Shown one piece after another: positions 1,809 through 19,430 of a stretch of DNA of 37,319 bases (the first letter of the stretch is position 1; each line of letters begins with the position of its first letter). The DNA is taken from NCBI GenBank assembly GCA_026393245.1, contig JAPLAO010000225.1:1-37319 (forward strand), in the 5' to 3' direction. Source of the stretch: Mycobacterium sp. Its GTDB lineage: Bacteria; Actinomycetota; Actinomycetes; Mycobacteriales; Mycobacteriaceae. Both the position numbers and the translations under genes were made by a program. Under the pieces are notes generated by a model. It saw nothing but the letters and a program-made list of their open reading frames with translations. It was not told the origin of the DNA and ran no database searches.

Positions 1809-2435
1809 GTGCTCGACTACATCCGCGATGCCGGCGAGATCTACCGGCAGTCCTTCGCGACGATTCGGACAGAGGCGGACCTGAGCCGGTTCCCCGAGGA
1901 CGTCGCGCGGGTGGTCGTGCGGCTGATCCACACCTGCGGACAGGTCGACCTCACCGAGCACGTGGACTTCACCCCTGACGTCGTCGCGGCCACCCACGCC
2001 GCACTGGCCGCGGGCGCCCCGATCCTGTGCGACTCGTCGATGGTGGCCGCGGGCATCACGGCCGCCCGGTTGCCGGCCGCCAACGAAGTCGTGTCGCTGG
2101 TCACCGACCCCCGCGCAGCCGATCTGGCGCGGCGGCGTGACACCACCCGATCGGCGGCCGGAGTGGAGTTGTGGGCCGACCGGATGGGTGGTGCGGTGCT
2201 GGCGATCGGTAACGCACCCACCGCACTGTTCCGGTTGCTGGAACTCATCGACGAGGGCGCCGACGCACCGGTGTCGGTACTCGGCGGCCCCGTCGGCTTC
2301 GTCGGGTCGGCACAATCGAAACAGGAACTCGTCGAGCACCCGCGCGGGATGGACTACCTGGTGGTGCGAGGCCGTCGCGGTGGCAGTGCGATGGCTGCGG
2401 CGGCGGTCAACGCGATCGCGAGTACCCGCGAATGA
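1809..2435 (+). CDS. cobH: Precorrin-8X methylmutase CobH
   Basis: GTG start, [48 protein letters not shown]; 208 aa; typical CobH C-terminus [14 protein letters not shown]. Confidence 0.93.
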
Positions 2436-2603
2436 AGCTTGCCGAATGAGCAATTGGCTGACGCGAATGAAGCTTGCCGAATGAGCAATTGGCTGAAGCG
2501 AATGACTGACGCGAATGAAGCTTGCCGAATGAGCAATTGGCTGACGCGAATGAAGCTTGCCGAATGAGCAATTGGCTGAAGCGAATGAGGCTTGCCGAAT
2601 GAG
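2428..2603 (+). repeat. 35-bp tandem repeat bridging the cobH stop and cobIJ start (4 full units, one 13-bp fragment, one partial unit)
   Basis: Unit GCGAATGAAGCTTGCCGAATGAGCAATTGGCTGA(C/A) at 2428-2462, 2463-2497, 2511-2545 and 2546-2580; fragment 2498-2510; partial unit 2581-2603. Confidence 0.97.
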
Positions 2604-4074
2604 CGGCACGCTGTACGGCGTCGGCTTGGGCCCGGGTGACCCCGAACTGGTGACCGTGAAGGCCGCCCGCATCATCGGCGCCGTCGACGTGGTGGCCTAT
2701 CACAGTGCGCGGCACGGTCGCAGTATCGCCCGCGGGATCGCCGAGCCATATCTGCGGCCGGGCCAGATCGAAGAACACCTCGTCTACCCGGTCACCACCG
2801 GCGACACCGACCACCCCGGCGGCTACGACGGGGCGATGGAGGAGTTCTACGCCGAATCCGCCGACCGGATTGCCATTCATCTGGACGCCGGCCGCGATGT
2901 CGCCCTACTCGCCGAAGGTGACCCGCTGTTCTACAGCTCCTATATGCACATGCACACCCGCCTGGCGGCGCGATTCGATGCGGTGATCGTGCCCGGCGTA
3001 ACGTCGATGAGCGCGGCCTCGGCAGCGACGTCCACTCCGTTGGCGACCGGCGACGAGGTGCTGTCAGTGCTGCCCGGAACGCTGCCGGTCAGCGAACTCG
3101 CCCGCCGTCTGGCCGATACCGACGCCGCCGTGATCATGAAACTGGGCCGCACGTATTCACAAGTGCGCGAAGCGCTTTCGCTGTCAGGTCGCCTTCATGA
3201 GGCGATCTACGTCGAGCGAGCCAGCAGCGACGGTCAGCGGGTCATGCCCGCCGCCGACGTCGATGACACCCAGGTGCCGTACTTCTCGGTGGCCGTCGTT
3301 CCGGGTGACGGCCGCACCACCCGGTCGGCACCGCGGATCGGAACCGTTGCGGTCGTCGGACTGGGCCCGGGCATGAGCGAATGGATGACGCCGCAGAGCC
3401 TGCGCGAGTTGGCCGCCGCCACCGATCTGATCGGCTACGGCCCGTATCTGGACCGGGTGCCGATCCGTCCTGGACAACGCCGGCACCCGTCCGATAACAC
3501 TGATGAACCTCAGCGCGCCCGGTTGGCCTGCGAACTGGCCGAGCAGGGTCGCGCGGTGGCGGTCGTGTCCTCCGGTGACCCTGGGGTTTTCGCGATGGCG
3601 ACGGCCGTACTCGAAGAGTCCAAGCAGTGGCCAACCGTCGCGGTGCGGGTGATTCCGGCGATGACCGCGGCCCAGGCGGTGGCCAGCAGGGTCGGCGCAC
3701 CGCTGGGCCACGACTACGCGGTGCTGTCGCTGTCCGACCGGCTCAAACCGTGGGAGGTGATCGCTGCTCGACTCTCTGCGGCCGCGGCGGCGGATCTGGT
3801 GCTGGCGATCTACAACCCGGCGTCGAAGAGCCGCACCTGGCAGGTCGCGGCCATGCGGGATCTGTTGCTCGAGCACCGCGACGCCGGCACGCCGGTGGTG
3901 ATCGGCCGCGATGTGTCCGGCCCCGGCGAATCGGTGAAAGTGGTTCGCCTGGCCGATCTGAACCCGGCAGATGTCGATATGCGCTGCCTTCTGATCGTCG
4001 GGTCGTCGCAAACCCAGTGGTATGCGGCGGCTACCGGGGACACGGTGTTTACGCCCCGGCGTTACCCCGGCTAA
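2599..4074 (+). CDS. cobIJ: Fused precorrin-2 C20-methyltransferase / precorrin-3B C17-methyltransferase CobIJ
   Basis: ATG at 2599, MSGTLYGVGLGPGDPELVTVKAARII; second methylase domain begins VAVVGLGPGMSEWMTPQSL; 491 aa. Confidence 0.94.
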   Translation: MSGTLYGVGLGPGDPELVTVKAARIIGAVDVVAYHSARHGRSIARGIAEPYLRPGQIEEHLVYPVTTGDTDHPGGYDGAMEEFYAESADRIAIHLDAGRDVALLAEGDPLFYSSYMHMHTRLAARFDAVIVPGVTSMSAASAATSTPLATGDEVLSVLPGTLPVSELARRLADTDAAVIMKLGRTYSQVREALSLSGRLHEAIYVERASSDGQRVMPAADVDDTQVPYFSVAVVPGDGRTTRSAPRIGTVAVVGLGPGMSEWMTPQSLRELAAATDLIGYGPYLDRVPIRPGQRRHPSDNTDEPQRARLACELAEQGRAVAVVSSGDPGVFAMATAVLEESKQWPTVAVRVIPAMTAAQAVASRVGAPLGHDYAVLSLSDRLKPWEVIAARLSAAAAADLVLAIYNPASKSRTWQVAAMRDLLLEHRDAGTPVVIGRDVSGPGESVKVVRLADLNPADVDMRCLLIVGSSQTQWYAAATGDTVFTPRRYPG

Positions 4075-4128: not shown

Positions 4129-4377
4129 ATGTCACGAACCACGATCGATCTCGACGACGAATTGCTGGCGCGGGCGTCCAAGGAATTAGGCACAACCAGC
4201 AAGAAGGACACCATTCACGCTGCTTTACGGGCCGCACTGCGCAAGAGTGCCTCACACGCTCTGCTGGATCGACTCGCGCAGAGCACCGAAGCTGATGAGG
4301 ATGCCGTCAATGCAATGTGGGAGCAGGCTGGCGACGCCGCCACGGCGCGAGAGGTAGACGAGCAGGCATCACGGTGA
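4129..4377 (+). CDS. VapB-family antitoxin (ribbon-helix-helix type)
   Basis: MSRTTIDLDDELLARASKELGTTSKKDTIHAALRAALRK is the VapB/RHH N-terminal pattern; directly followed by a PIN-type ORF. Confidence 0.88.
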   Translation: MSRTTIDLDDELLARASKELGTTSKKDTIHAALRAALRKSASHALLDRLAQSTEADEDAVNAMWEQAGDAATAREVDEQASR

Positions 4378-4790
4378 ATGTGCGCTATCTGCTAGACAAG
4401 TCTGCGGCGTATCGCACGCACATTCCGGGCGTCCGAAAGCGGCTGGAACCCTTGATGGAACACGGACTGCTAGCCCGTTGCGGCATCAGCGATGTGGAAG
4501 CCGGCGTGTCAGCCCGCTCCGCTGCCGATCACCAGGCGCTGGGCCGCTATCGCCGGGACGCGCTGGAATACCTGACCACACCGGACAGCGTGTGGGATCG
4601 CGTCTGGGAAGTGCAACACGCCCTGGCTGCCGACGGGCTGCACCGGTCAGTAAAGATTCCCGACCTGATCATCGCAGCCGTCGCCGAACACCACGGTGTG
4701 TCGGTAATCCACTACGACCACGATTTTGACCGGATCGCAGCCATCACGGGTCAAGCGGTTGAATGGGTGGTTCCTGCCGGGTCCGCTTGA
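4374..4790 (+). CDS. VapC-family PIN-domain toxin (ribonuclease)
   Basis: GTG at 4374-4376 overlaps the vapB stop (GTGA). VNVRYLLDKSAAYR...GISDVEAGVSAR...SVKIPDLIIAAVAEHHGVSVIHYDHDFDRIA has the PIN acidic residues. Confidence 0.88.
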   Translation: MNVRYLLDKSAAYRTHIPGVRKRLEPLMEHGLLARCGISDVEAGVSARSAADHQALGRYRRDALEYLTTPDSVWDRVWEVQHALAADGLHRSVKIPDLIIAAVAEHHGVSVIHYDHDFDRIAAITGQAVEWVVPAGSA

Positions 4791-5508: not shown

Positions 5509-6263
5509 CAGTGCCGGTCTCCCCGCGACCGGCCCGACGAGTAGAGATAGCTATCCGGAAACCCTTCGGCGGCAAGCACATCGCCGACGATGATCACCGC
5601 GGTGCGAGTGATCGCGGCCGCGTGAATCTGGCCGGCGATATCGGCGAGTGTGCCGCGGAGCACGACCTGCTGAGGCCAACTCGCAAATGCGACGACCGCG
5701 GCGGGGGTATCCGGCCGGTAACCCCCGGCGAGCAGTTGCGGCACGATCGCGTCGATACGGTGGGCGGCCAGGTGGATCGCGAGGGTGGCCCCGTGGGCCG
5801 CAAGCGTCGTCAGCTCCTCACCCTCGGGCATTGCGGTGGACAGGGTCGAGACCCGAGTCAGGATCACCGTCTGCGCAACACCCGGCACGGTCAGCTCCCG
5901 GCCCAGTGCGGCCGCAGCGGCGGCGAACGCCGGCACACCTGGAACGATTTCGTAGCCGATGCCGAGTTCGGCTAGGCGACGGCTTTGTTCGGCCACCGCG
6001 CTGTAGATCGACGGGTCGCCGGAGTGCAACCTCGCTACGTCATGTCCCGCAGCGTCGGCGACGGCGATCTCGTCGATGATCTGATCCAGTGTCAACGGCC
6101 CGGTGTCGACGACACGGGTATCGACCGGGCAATTCGCGAGCAGATCATTCGGCATGATTGAGCCGGCATAGAGGCAGACCGCGCAGCGCTGCAGGATTCT
6201 CTGCCCGCGGACCGTGATCAGGTCGGCCGCACCCGGCCCGGCGCCGATGAAGTACACCGTCAC
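5508..6263 (-). CDS. cobM: Precorrin-4 C11-methyltransferase CobM
   Basis: GTG at 6261-6263 (GTGA overlap with the cobL stop), VTVYFIGAGPGAADLITVRGQRILQRCAVCLYAGSIMP; 251 aa. Confidence 0.93.
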   Translation of the reverse strand: MTVYFIGAGPGAADLITVRGQRILQRCAVCLYAGSIMPNDLLANCPVDTRVVDTGPLTLDQIIDEIAVADAAGHDVARLHSGDPSIYSAVAEQSRRLAELGIGYEIVPGVPAFAAAAAALGRELTVPGVAQTVILTRVSTLSTAMPEGEELTTLAAHGATLAIHLAAHRIDAIVPQLLAGGYRPDTPAAVVAFASWPQQVVLRGTLADIAGQIHAAAITRTAVIIVGDVLAAEGFPDSYLYSSGRSRGDRH

Positions 6264-7456
6264 TTCCGTGTCACCGCCGCCACCGTCAGCAGCCACTGAG
6301 AGATCGGCATTTGAGGACGCCAGCCGGTGAACCCGCCCAGCGGCTCGCCCTGATAGTGCTGAAAGCGCCGTAGTTCGCCGCCGAGGCGGGAATGCCATTG
6401 GACCAGAAGCGCTTCGGATTCCGCGGTGACCGCATTGGCCACCAATCGGCCGCTGGCGGGCAACTGCGCCAGGCAGGCTTCGACCATTCCGGATCCGGTG
6501 AGCCCGCCGCCGATGAAGATGGCGTCCGGCCGCGCCGCGACCTCGAACTCTTCCGGCGCCTCACCCCGAACGTCGATATCGGCGCCGAAGGCGCGGGCAT
6601 TGGCCACGATCCGCATCCGGCGCTCCGGTCTGGTTTCGAATGCCACGGCCCGACAACCCGATCCGCTGCGGCACCACTCCACGGCGATGCTTCCCGAACC
6701 CGATCCGACATCCCAGAGAAGTTCACCCGGGCGGGGCGCGAGGGCGGCGAGGGTTACCGCGCGAACTGTCTGCTTAGTGATCTGGCCGTCATGGAGTAAC
6801 AGGTCATCGGGCAGCATGCCCCCGACTCGCTCATCGGGCAGGTAGTCGATGCCAATGACGTTGAGGTCGTCGATATCCCGTGGCGGCGCCGCAGCCCAGG
6901 CCTCGGCTGGGCCGGATCGGATGCGCTCCCCCGGGCCGTCGAGTTGCTCCAGCACGGTGAACTCCGAAGCACCGCGACCCGTTTCGGTGAGGATCGCGGC
7001 CAACTCGGCCGGAGTCGATGATCCCTGCGACAGCACCACTGCCCGCCCGCCTCGGCGCACCGCCGTATGCACCGGCGCGGTGACGAGGCTGATGATCTCG
7101 ACGTCCTGCACCGGCCAGCCCATCCGGGCGCACGCCAGTGTCACCGAGGACACGTGCGGCAGCACCCGCACCTGATCCGCACCATGTATCCGGATCAGGG
7201 TGCCACCGATGCCGTGCAGTAAGGGGTCGCCACTGGCTACAACGTGGATGTCCTCATCGACGGGTAGCTGTTCCAGCGCGGGCAGCATCGGCGTGGGCCA
7301 GGGATGCCTCGGTGCGGTAACTGTGTCGTCAAGCAGATCCAGCTGGCGCGGAGATCCGTAGATGACGGTGGCGGTGCGCAGTTCGAGTTGCGAGCTTTCC
7401 GACATCCCTGCCATCCCGTCGGCGCCGATACCCACCACAACAATCACCGGGGTCAT
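6260..7456 (-). CDS. cobL: Precorrin-6Y C5,15-methyltransferase (decarboxylating) CobL
   Basis: MTPVIVVVGIGADGMAGMSESSQLELRTATVIYGSPRQLDLL; C-terminal SAM domain LLWDVGSGSGSIAVEWCR; 398 aa. Confidence 0.93.
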   Translation of the reverse strand: MTPVIVVVGIGADGMAGMSESSQLELRTATVIYGSPRQLDLLDDTVTAPRHPWPTPMLPALEQLPVDEDIHVVASGDPLLHGIGGTLIRIHGADQVRVLPHVSSVTLACARMGWPVQDVEIISLVTAPVHTAVRRGGRAVVLSQGSSTPAELAAILTETGRGASEFTVLEQLDGPGERIRSGPAEAWAAAPPRDIDDLNVIGIDYLPDERVGGMLPDDLLLHDGQITKQTVRAVTLAALAPRPGELLWDVGSGSGSIAVEWCRSGSGCRAVAFETRPERRMRIVANARAFGADIDVRGEAPEEFEVAARPDAIFIGGGLTGSGMVEACLAQLPASGRLVANAVTAESEALLVQWHSRLGGELRRFQHYQGEPLGGFTGWRPQMPISQWLLTVAAVTRK

Positions 7457-7546
7457 ATTCGGTTCTTCACTTCGTTCATCACCGGAATCCTCTTCGGTTC
7501 TTCACTTCGTTCATCACCGGGGTCATATTCGGTTCTTCACTTCGTT
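7442..7546 (-). repeat. 35-bp tandem repeat (3 units) spanning the SDR stop to the cobL start
   Basis: Minus-strand unit AACGAAGTGAAGAACCGAATATGACCCCGGTGATG; plus-strand copies 7442-7476, 7477-7511 (central variant) and 7512-7546. Confidence 0.96.
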
Positions 7547-8274
7547 GGTAACAAACGCATGCCGAAGAAAAGCGGCTGCAGCGCCCACGGCACCCACACC
7601 GTGCTGCGTCCCCGCCCCAGCGCCCGCGCCGTGGCTTCAGCCACCTGCGCGGGTGTGCTCGACAATGGCGCGGGATCCATGCCCTCAGTCATCCGGCCGA
7701 TCACGAAACCCGGTCGCACGATCAGTAGCCGCACCCCACTTCCGTGCAGCGCATCGGACAGTCCGCTGGCGAAACCGTCGAGACCTGCCTTGGCCGAGCC
7801 GTAGACGTAGTTGGCCCGCCGCACCCGCACCCCGGCAACCGAGGAGAACACCACCAGCGACCCGCCACCGGCATCACGCATCGAGCCGGCGAGCACCGTC
7901 AGCAGATTGATCTGCGCCACGTAGTCGGTGTGCACGATGGCAACCGCGTGGGCGGAGTCGGCCTCGGCGCGCCCCTGATCGCCGAGGATCCCGAACGCCA
8001 GCACGGCGGTGCCGATAGCTCCGTATTCCCCGATCAGCTTGTCCAGCAGCGGGCCGTGCGAGTCCAAGTTGTCGGCATCGAACTCGACCTTATGCACCGC
8101 CACCGCACCAGCCGCGCGCACCGCCGCTACCTGCTCGCCGAGGCGGTCGGCGCCACGGGCTGCCAGCACCACCGTCGACCCAGGGGCAAGCCGGGTGGCG
8201 AGTTCAACACCGATCTCGCTGCGGCCGCCGAAAATCACGACGACGCCATCGGCCGCGTCGGCCGTGTCATCCAT
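7537..8274 (-). CDS. Short-chain dehydrogenase/reductase (Rv2073c-like)
   Basis: VVVIFGGRSEIGVELATRLAPGSTVVLAARG; S...YVYGSAKAGLDGF active-site YxxxK. Confidence 0.88.
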   Translation of the reverse strand: MDDTADAADGVVVIFGGRSEIGVELATRLAPGSTVVLAARGADRLGEQVAAVRAAGAVAVHKVEFDADNLDSHGPLLDKLIGEYGAIGTAVLAFGILGDQGRAEADSAHAVAIVHTDYVAQINLLTVLAGSMRDAGGGSLVVFSSVAGVRVRRANYVYGSAKAGLDGFASGLSDALHGSGVRLLIVRPGFVIGRMTEGMDPAPLSSTPAQVAEATARALGRGRSTVWVPWALQPLFFGMRLLPTK

Positions 8275-10851: not shown

Positions 10852-10873
10852 GCAGCGCCCGCGCGAGGGGGCC

Positions 10874-10997
10874 GCCTACTTCACCCCATGACGGCGCCAA
10901 GCGCCTACTTCACCCCATGACGGCGCCAAGCGCCTACTTCACCCCATGACGGCGCCAAGCGCCTACTTCACCCGATGACGGCGCCAAGCGCCTACTT
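10874..10997. repeat. 29-bp tandem repeat (4 units plus an 8-bp partial) between convergent gene ends
   Basis: GCCTACTTCACCCCATGACGGCGCCAAGC at 10874-10902, 10903-10931, 10932-10960 and 10961-10989 (C to G variant); partial 10990-10997 includes the stop codon of the minus-strand gene. Adjacent GGCGC-CAA-GCGCC hairpins. Confidence 0.96.
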
Positions 10998-16977: not shown

Positions 16978-18008
16978 GAGGTCACCGCCGACTGCGCCAT
17001 GAGCCGTGCCAGTACGTCGTGACGCAGTGACGCCGGTTCCAGCACCAGTGCGTCGGCGCCATACCCGGCGACCTCGCGAGCCAGGCGGTCGAGCGCACCC
17101 ACCTCGAGTTCGATGATCTCGCCCTCGCGACCGGCGATGGTACGACGGCCGATTGAGCGACCCGCGCGTCGCACTGCGGTGGCATATCCGTCGGCCACCC
17201 ACACCACGGCCTGCCCGCCGCTGGACGTCTCACCGATCGCCCGATCCACCAGCGCGCGTAGATCCACCCCGTCCGGCCGGGTCACCGAGCGTTGTGGCCC
17301 AACGGTTTTCACGTCAGCGCCGATCCGGGAGAGGCGGAATATCCGAGTGGCATCGCGGTCTCGGTCATGACCGACCAGATACCAGCGGCCCATCGCGGTG
17401 ACCACACCCCAGGGTTCGACGGTGCGTTCGGCGTAGGCCTCGACCGGGGTGGGCCGGTGCTGGAACCGAACCGCATGCCCGGTGTCGATGGCGGACAGCA
17501 GGATTCCGAGAGCGTCTTCCGAGCCGCGAAGACCCATGGGGCCCATACCGGTGGTGATCGCCACACCGGCAGCCGGATCCACGTCGACACCGGCCGCCCG
17601 CAACTTCAGCAGCGCGCTTTGTGCGGCCGTGATCCGCTCGGGCGACTCCCAGAGTTTGGTGGCCACCGCGACAGCCGCGGCCTCGTCGCGGGTCAGGTCG
17701 ATATCGGGCAGGGCGTAGTCGTCACGGGTGATCCGGTAGCCCTCGGCGGGGTCGAAGTTCGATACCTTTCCTGTCTCGAGGGGTATGCCGAGATCGCGCA
17801 ACTCGGCCTTGTCGCGCTCGAACATCCGGGAGAACGCCTCGTCGCTGGGACATTCGGCGTAACCGGCGACGTTGGCCCGGATCCGTTCGGCGGTCAGGAA
17901 GCCGCGCGTCGATAGCAGCGCGATCACAAGGTTCATCAACCGCTCGACTTTAGAGATCCCCACGCGCCCAACCTTAACCGCACGCCCGCCGAAGCCGGGT
18001 GCACTCAC
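16974..18008 (-). CDS. pafB: WYL-domain DNA-damage regulator PafB (start uncertain: GTG at 18006-18008 or GTG at 17961-17963)
   Basis: SKVERLMNLVIALLSTRGFLTAERIRANVAGYAECPSDEAFSRMFERDKAELRDLGIPLE. Confidence 0.9.
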   Translation of the reverse strand: MSAPGFGGRAVKVGRVGISKVERLMNLVIALLSTRGFLTAERIRANVAGYAECPSDEAFSRMFERDKAELRDLGIPLETGKVSNFDPAEGYRITRDDYALPDIDLTRDEAAAVAVATKLWESPERITAAQSALLKLRAAGVDVDPAAGVAITTGMGPMGLRGSEDALGILLSAIDTGHAVRFQHRPTPVEAYAERTVEPWGVVTAMGRWYLVGHDRDRDATRIFRLSRIGADVKTVGPQRSVTRPDGVDLRALVDRAIGETSSGGQAVVWVADGYATAVRRAGRSIGRRTIAGREGEIIELEVGALDRLAREVAGYGADALVLEPASLRHDVLARLMAQSAVTS

Positions 18009-18077
18009 ATTCGGGTGTTCTCACATACGGGTGTTGCTCACATACGGGTGTTGCTCACATACGGGTGTTGCTCACAT
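18004..18077 (-). repeat. 17-bp tandem repeat between the pafA stop and pafB start
   Basis: CTCACATACGGGTGTTG at 18020-18036, 18037-18053 and 18054-18070; 16-bp variant 18004-18019; partial from 18071 overlapping the pafA stop. Confidence 0.96.
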
Positions 18078-19430
18078 ACTGGCAATGAGCCGTTTCACCC
18101 GCTCGTCGGTGGAGCGGAACGGGTCCTTGCACAGCACGGTGCGCTGAGCCTGGTCGTTGAGTTTCAGATGCACCCAGTCGACGGTGAAATCACGGCCGGC
18201 CTCCTGAGCGGCGCTGATGAACTCTCCACGCAGCTTCGCCCGGGTGGTCTGCGGTGGGGTGTCGACAGCCACCTCGATGTCCTCGTCGGTGGTCACCCGG
18301 GCCGCAAGCCCCTTGCGCTGCAGGATGTCGAACACTCCCCGGCCCCGCTTGATGTCGTGGTAAGCCAGGTCGAGTTGGCTGATCTTGGGGTCGGACAGTT
18401 CCATGCTGTAGCGGTCCTGGTAGCGCTGGAACAGTTTTTTCTTGATCACCCAGTCAATCTCGGTGTCAACCTTGGCGAAATCCTGGCTCTCGACGGCGTC
18501 AAGTTGGCGGCCCCACAGATCGACCACCTGATCGATCTGGGTATTGGGCTCGCGGGACTGCAGGTACTCCACCGCACGGGCGTAGTACTCGCGCTGGATG
18601 TCCAGCGCACTGGCCTGCCGCCCGCCGGCGAGTCGCACCGGCCGCCGTCCGGTCAGATCGTGACTGACCTCGCGGATGGCGCGAATCGGGTTGTCCAGGG
18701 AGAAGTCCCGGAACGGCACGCCGGCTTCGATCATCTCCAGCACCAGTGCGCACGTGCCGACCTTCAGCATGGTCGTCGTCTCACTCATGTTGGAATCGCC
18801 GACGATCACGTGCAGTCGCCGGTACTTCTCGGCATCGGCATGGGGCTCGTCGCGGGTATTGATGATCGGACGTGACCGGGTGGTGGCGCTGGAGACACCC
18901 TCCCAGATGTGCTCGGCGCGCTGGGATAGGCAGAACGCCGCGGCCTTCGGAGTCTGCAGCACCTTGCCGGCGCCGCAGATGAGTTGGCGCGTCACCAGGA
19001 ACGGCAGCAGCACATCAGAGATCCGGGAGAACTCACCGGCCCGAACGATCAGGTAATTCTCGTGGCATCCGTAGGAGTTGCCTGCCGAGTCGGTGTTGTT
19101 CTTAAACAGATAAATGTCCCCGCCAATGCCCTCATCGGCGAGCCGCTGCTCGGCGTCGATAAGAAGGTCCTCCAGTACCCGCTCACCCGCACGATCGTGG
19201 GTGACGAGCTGGATCAGATTGTCGCATTCGGCGGTGGCGTATTCGGGATGGCTGCCCACGTCGAGGTACAGCCGCGCACCGTTGCGCAGGAAGACGTTCG
19301 AGCTTCGGCCCCAGGAGACCACCCGACGGAACAGGTAGCGAGCAACTTCGTCCGGGCTGAGCCGACGGTGTCCGTGAAACGTGCAGGTGACTCCGAACTC
19401 GGTTTCGATGCCCATGATTCTGCGCTGCAC
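18072..19430 (-). CDS. pafA: Pup-protein ligase PafA
   Basis: [70 protein letters not shown]; 452 aa from GTG at 19428-19430. Confidence 0.95.

Follow-up and report, generated by a model that had tools for sequence, protein, structure and literature searches.

The stretch of DNA analysed here (the window, 37,319 nucleotides of a Mycobacterium sp. contig) contains the neighbouring cistrons cobH and cobIJ, and the gap between them is occupied by a tandem array of 35-bp units (Table 1). The units lie head to tail and are near-identical (96–100% matches), and with a TRF score of 324 the array cannot be a product of chance. The core GAATGARGCTTGCCGAATGAGC occurs five times, with starts at 2430, 2465, 2513, 2548 and 2583. 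The spacings between cores are 35, 48, 35 and 35 bp, the 48 bp corresponding to 35 bp plus a duplicated 13-mer, and TRF identified positions 2427–2588 as an exact 83-bp repeat. The 13-bp duplication and the exact 83-bp repeat together indicate at least two nested duplications. Because the window genome is a draft assembly (3.35 Mb, 364 contigs), in which short reads easily mis-size an exact 83-bp tandem repeat, the copy number of the array is uncertain.

When the path was walked from the cobH stop with restarts at 4-nt NTGA overlaps alone, it reached cobIJ through four micro-ORFs and five junctions, all of them ATGA. A preliminary description of this DNA had proposed both the 35-bp repeat filling the gap and the micro-ORF chain with ATGA at every junction; TRF and the five cores confirmed the former, and the chain walk reproduced the latter to the base. 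It had also mentioned a 13-bp irregular insertion that leaves the chain whole. The chain is indeed whole, and the insertion is a second copy of CTGAmGCGAATGA (2493–2518). Every one of the 16 stop codons of the array is a TGA, within ATGA in 11 cases and CTGA in 5, and each of the array's 11 ATGs reaches cobIJ via NTGA hops. A consensus scan of positions 1700–2900 found no promoter or terminator. Antisense ORFs running through the array on the minus strand (1500–2675 and 2407–2880) were taken as spurious, and a structured RNA was rejected on the grounds that the window has no Rfam match and that the fold score of the array is weak (z = −2.07; 4 of 200 shuffles as stable), as expected of repeats.

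Table 1 Features of the cobH–cobIJ junction and of the other arrays in the window.
Feature	Position	Strand	Basis or remark
cobH (precorrin-8X methylmutase, CbiC family), upstream cistron	1809–2435	+	Pfam CbiC, E = 5.9e-69
cobH stop TGA	2433–2435	+	
Tandem array, 35-bp units, five cores, 13-bp internal duplication, exact 83-bp higher-order repeat	2427–2604	+	TRF; core matches
Micro-ORF 1, MKLAE	2432–2449	+	Chain walk; ATGA overlap with cobH stop
Micro-ORF 2, MSNWLTRMKLAE	2446–2484	+	Chain walk
Micro-ORF 3, covers the 13-bp duplication	2481–2567	+	Chain walk
Micro-ORF 4, MSNWLKRMRLAE	2564–2602	+	Chain walk; ATGA overlap with cobIJ start
SD-like GAGG, 8 nt 5' of cobIJ ATG	2587–2590	+	Sequence; anti-SD duplex energy
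cobIJ (two tetrapyrrole methylase domains), downstream cistron	2599–4074	+	Pfam TP_methylase, 2 stretches, E = 8.6e-76
cobIJ start ATG	2599–2601	+	
Second, unrelated 35-bp array, 3 units, between SDR gene (7537–8274) and cobL (6260–7456)	7443–7546	−	
SDR–cobL micro-ORF VKNRI	7540–7523	−	GTGA/ATGA chain
SDR–cobL micro-ORF MTPVMNEVKNRRGFR	7526–7479	−	GTGA/ATGA chain
SDR–cobL micro-ORF VMNEVKNRI	7482–7453	−	GTGA/ATGA chain
cobL ATG	7456	−	GTGA/ATGA chain
29-bp array, about four units, between convergent genes (5'-3' exonuclease, DUF4333)	10873–10997		
17-bp array at stop of presumed pafA	18004–18079	−	GTGA chain of VSNTRM-stop repeats

We compared the cobH–cobIJ junction across the genus in a sample of 150 rows, 149 of them distinct (L037 equals L045); the 116 junctions that were fetched were the best-scoring among the matches listed, and about 45 more divergent genomes lie outside the sample. 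Strict NTGA steps joined the two genes in 147 of the 149 distinct junctions, directly in 134 and through 1–4 micro-ORFs in 13. In the remaining two, cobH ends in TAG and the overlap is 8 nt (ATGCCTAG). The direct opening of cobIJ at the cobH-stop NTGA in 134/149 supports the earlier suggestion of an ancestral ATGA junction, the ancestral state being a simple NTGA overlap. No broken path was found in the 149 distinct junctions, although the gap ranges from 8 to 175 nt, and in several lineages of the tree (L020; L022; L090/L100; the window's group; L079) micro-ORFs bridge out-of-phase inserts. Shuffled inserts kept the chain in 3–35% of cases, and dinucleotide shuffling of the window insert left cobH-to-cobIJ intact in 10.6%. 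As a control we used a junction of the same genus that we take, from the gene order in M. tuberculosis, to be pafA–pafB. There the path reached the downstream gene in 5 of 20 cases and failed to do so in 15 (Fisher p about 2e-15 against cobH–cobIJ, relatedness ignored). According to the preliminary description, routine breaks of the chain by the repeats of close relatives would speak against its reading; such breaks were sought at cobH–cobIJ without being found there, and were seen at pafA–pafB instead. Since none of the 149 cobH–cobIJ paths is broken while most pafA–pafB chains break, coupling of cobH and cobIJ appears to be conserved in the genus.

The integrity of the array itself carries less weight. 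We enumerated tandem duplications in silico within each junction, and 80–94% of them kept the chain in the repeat-bearing group (about 80% for a junction such as that of the window). In the window the chain survived 99 of 100 simulated 83-bp duplications. With changes of 35 bp it was kept in 137 of 148 duplications and in 137 of 138 deletions, as anticipated by the proposal that new copies bring the coupling signal along. Simulated 1-nt indels left a path in 76% of cases in the window versus 0% in two simple overlaps. Duplication thus preserves the chain almost automatically, so that an unbroken array is by itself no evidence of selection; once duplication is granted, the unbroken chain is weakly informative, and we rejected it as proof of selection. 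The simulations favour the simple duplication model of the preliminary description, and they suggest that the chain stays intact almost regardless of how many units there are.

The core is confined to this one junction. Elsewhere in the window genome (3.35 Mb, 364 contigs) it had no match at ≤ 3 mismatches outside 2430–2604. A scan of 84,980 species for the exact core returned 7 loci, all in MAGs of related mycobacteria and only at the cobH–cobIJ junction; six are flanked by both genes, and the seventh (L032) by cobIJ on one side and the contig end on the other. Among 397 genomes of the genus, the exact core was present in 7, including that of the window, and absent from other loci in them. 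Genomes of the core-bearing group measure 2.5–4.0 Mb, some being incomplete, and the group likely consists of freshwater mycobacteria with small genomes, the habitat being read from lake or river record titles alone. Unit number, compared between species, is one in G112, G195, G312 and L032, two in G032 and G025, three in G330 and five in the window; G112, with its single unit, is the closest relative. A degenerate copy of the core, GTGAGGCTTGCCGAACGAGC, lies at the cobH–cobIJ junction of G194 (L079), where another stop maintains the chain. As G194 is placed outside the repeat-bearing group in the tree, the core element either has an old origin and many losses behind it or was transferred. One record of the sample, L036 (CAMCWJ010000192.1), is titled Bifidobacterium breve and is a G112 contig; its CobH is 97.6% identical to that of the window, and the title looks wrong.

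We further examined the ribosome-binding signals of the array. In the core ATGAGGCTTGCCGAATGAGC, a Shine–Dalgarno (SD)-like GAGG ends 8 nt before the second ATG. Within the window GAGG is found in the last unit only, before cobIJ, and the other four units read GAAG; the anti-SD duplex energy is −7.3 kcal/mol at the cobIJ start and −1.4 kcal/mol at the micro-ORF starts 2446, 2481 and 2564. The value of −7.3 kcal/mol at the final start was shared by 5 of the 6 core-bearing relatives evaluated, and the mean over direct junctions was −3.45. In G112 (L003), where GAGG sits a step further upstream, the value at the final start is a weak −1.9 kcal/mol. The direct junctions of most species are without a strong SD. 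Core identity is 95–100% among eight species, a figure inflated by the fact that three of the eight were found via the core itself, while cobH and cobIJ third codon positions average 63% and equal-length linkers 64%. The encoded peptides vary (MKLAE, MRLAE, MRPAE), so that the conserved part would be the nucleotide signals and not the peptides.

Other repeats of the same genome provide comparison. The second 35-bp array of the window, unrelated to the first, behaves alike in linking the SDR gene to cobL by chained micro-ORFs, in favour of coupling. The SDR–cobL junction carries three micro-ORFs in G330 (L211) and one in G312 (L210), in arrays related to the one at 7443–7546 in the window. Sixteen of 18 evaluable SDR–cobL paths reach cobL, and L228 proved direct on inspection. 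In L220 (G025) the path is broken by the TAG that terminates the SDR gene; AGAGG precedes a GTG in frame with cobL there. In a census covering 270 kb of the genome (40 contigs plus the window), at least three chained micro-ORFs between long ORFs were found only at cobH–cobIJ and SDR–cobL; 17 other paths had one or two, some of them surely spurious. The 17-bp array was considered as a third coupling relay and rejected, as its chain ends at a TAA before the likely leaderless start of pafB. The unit lengths of the four arrays in the window (17, 29, 35 and 35) are all 2 mod 3. The cobIJ–cobK interval (4130–4790) holds a pair that, judged by sequence, resembles toxin–antitoxin systems of the VapBC type, with an antitoxin from about 4130 and a PIN-like ORF at 4317–4790.

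Several known systems resemble the array in part. MIRUs were reportedly first described, by Supply and colleagues in 1997, in a mycobacterial two-component operon, and they occur in tandem copies at some loci. According to a review, start codons are the sites at which MIRUs insert, their internal ORF is coupled at −4 nt, and expression is probably spared (PMC12548453). The array, too, is a short repeat located at a start codon, with an internal ORF that shares 4 nt with its neighbour, and downstream translation should likewise survive it. Unlike MIRUs, it occupies one locus, has a shorter unit and no core match elsewhere, chains up to four micro-ORFs and apparently derives from the local junction and not from insertion. 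With NUGA-overlap termination–reinitiation pairs (Huber et al. 2019, PMC6728339, where coupling was seen for 13 of 14 overlapping pairs tested in Haloferax and E. coli) it shares the 4-nt stop–start overlap and an SD-like motif ahead of the second start; those pairs, however, have one overlap between two genes, whereas the array places several in series via micro-ORFs. In uPPE2–PPE2 of M. tuberculosis, which belongs to a B12 riboswitch operon, AUGA reinitiation after a short uORF was shown by mutation and assayed in M. smegmatis (PMC11260477). There too a small ORF hands ribosomes on through AUGA, in mycobacteria and near B12-related genes, but it is a single uORF downstream of a riboswitch and without a tandem repeat, whereas the window is without Rfam match. 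Mycobacterial VNTR or minisatellite loci share the near-identical tandem units varying in number between taxa; in contrast to them, the array lies inside an operon junction with the coding path preserved, and its variation is known between species only. Read from its sequence, the array is a multi-step version of known stop–start coupling.

We therefore propose, with a probability of roughly 0.7, that the array is a chained, locus-confined termination–reinitiation relay, functionally like the −4-nt coupling of MIRUs without being a MIRU. In the ancestral junction, a 4-nt NTGA overlap would have let ribosomes ending CobH reinitiate on cobIJ. In the lineage of the window, the junction would have acquired a mini-cistron, ATG–(SD-like GAGG)–8 nt–ATGA, later duplicated in tandem. 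With its own stop–start overlap in every copy, the array would hand ribosomes through micro-ORFs of 5 to 28 codons to the cobIJ AUG, which would still be preceded by the GAGG of the last unit, and a change in copy number is predicted to leave the integrity of coupling almost unaffected. The micro-ORF peptides are probably by-products, position and overlap mattering and not peptide sequence. The data show the array, its ATGA chain, the ancestral overlap, the restriction to one locus and a continuous path in all relatives examined; from them we infer reinitiation in vivo at each junction, use of the GAGG and peptides without function. A chain over five junctions should shed ribosomes unless every step is efficient. 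At rather low odds, the array might in addition act as a frame-proof ribosome funnel, in which entry at any array ATG, most indels and nearly any unit change would be tolerated and a unit number adjusted by slippage would grade CobIJ:CobH.

If cobIJ were initiated de novo at the GAGG that precedes it, as could be the case, the relay would be dispensable. The main rival to the relay starts from this point: the array would be a neutral minisatellite, slippage debris whose chain is a mechanical result of ATGA-rich units, with cobIJ initiated de novo from the last GAGG. The retention of GAGG by the last unit alone fits this reading, as do the chain-keeping rates of simulated duplications (80–94% in the repeat-bearing group) and 1-nt indels (76% in the window), and the same genome holds non-coupling arrays between the convergent genes and at pafA–pafB. 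However, the 0 of 149 broken paths stand against 15 of 20 that do not reach at pafA–pafB, and because the direct junctions of most species are without a strong SD, coupling itself looks conserved; we consider a purely neutral array unlikely, if a serious contender. The unit number, differing between species (1, 1, 1, 1, 2, 2, 3, 5), could alternatively point to an attenuator tuned by copy number, in which ribosomes lost per junction would set a slippage-variable CobIJ:CobH ratio, and reporter studies show that coupling efficiency depends on spacing and context (PMC12548453). Yet copy number, in a comparison between species only, is linked to no need, and the loss of upstream GAGG is explicable as one change spread by duplication, so that such tuning, which the preliminary description had suggested, is doubtful.

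That the unit number is an assembly artefact, the true array being shorter or longer, is suggested by an exact 83-bp tandem repeat in a 364-contig draft and by the single unit of G112. This is improbable: three further assemblies (L005, L006 and L034) also contain several units, which shows that the expansion is real, and the GAAG and GAGG unit variants hold an order. Insertion of a MIRU-type mobile repeat at the cobIJ start would match the start-codon position and the −4-nt coupling of an internal ORF that are described for MIRUs (PMC12548453), but the unit is 35 bp and the core occurs only at cobH–cobIJ, whether sought in the genome (≤ 3 mismatches) or as an exact match in 84,980 species and 397 genus genomes. 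A MIRU-like interspersed repeat was accordingly rejected, as the preliminary description had expected from unit sequence and length, and the mobile-repeat reading is scarcely credible.

If the array acts as a termination–reinitiation relay, the natural series formed by this orthologous junction, with its 0 to 4 micro-ORFs in a chain, would provide a gauge of successive bacterial reinitiations, whose number single-overlap studies cannot gauge. It would also reveal how simply an out-of-frame insert may be made harmless where two genes are coupled, in that the insert brings its own ATGA.
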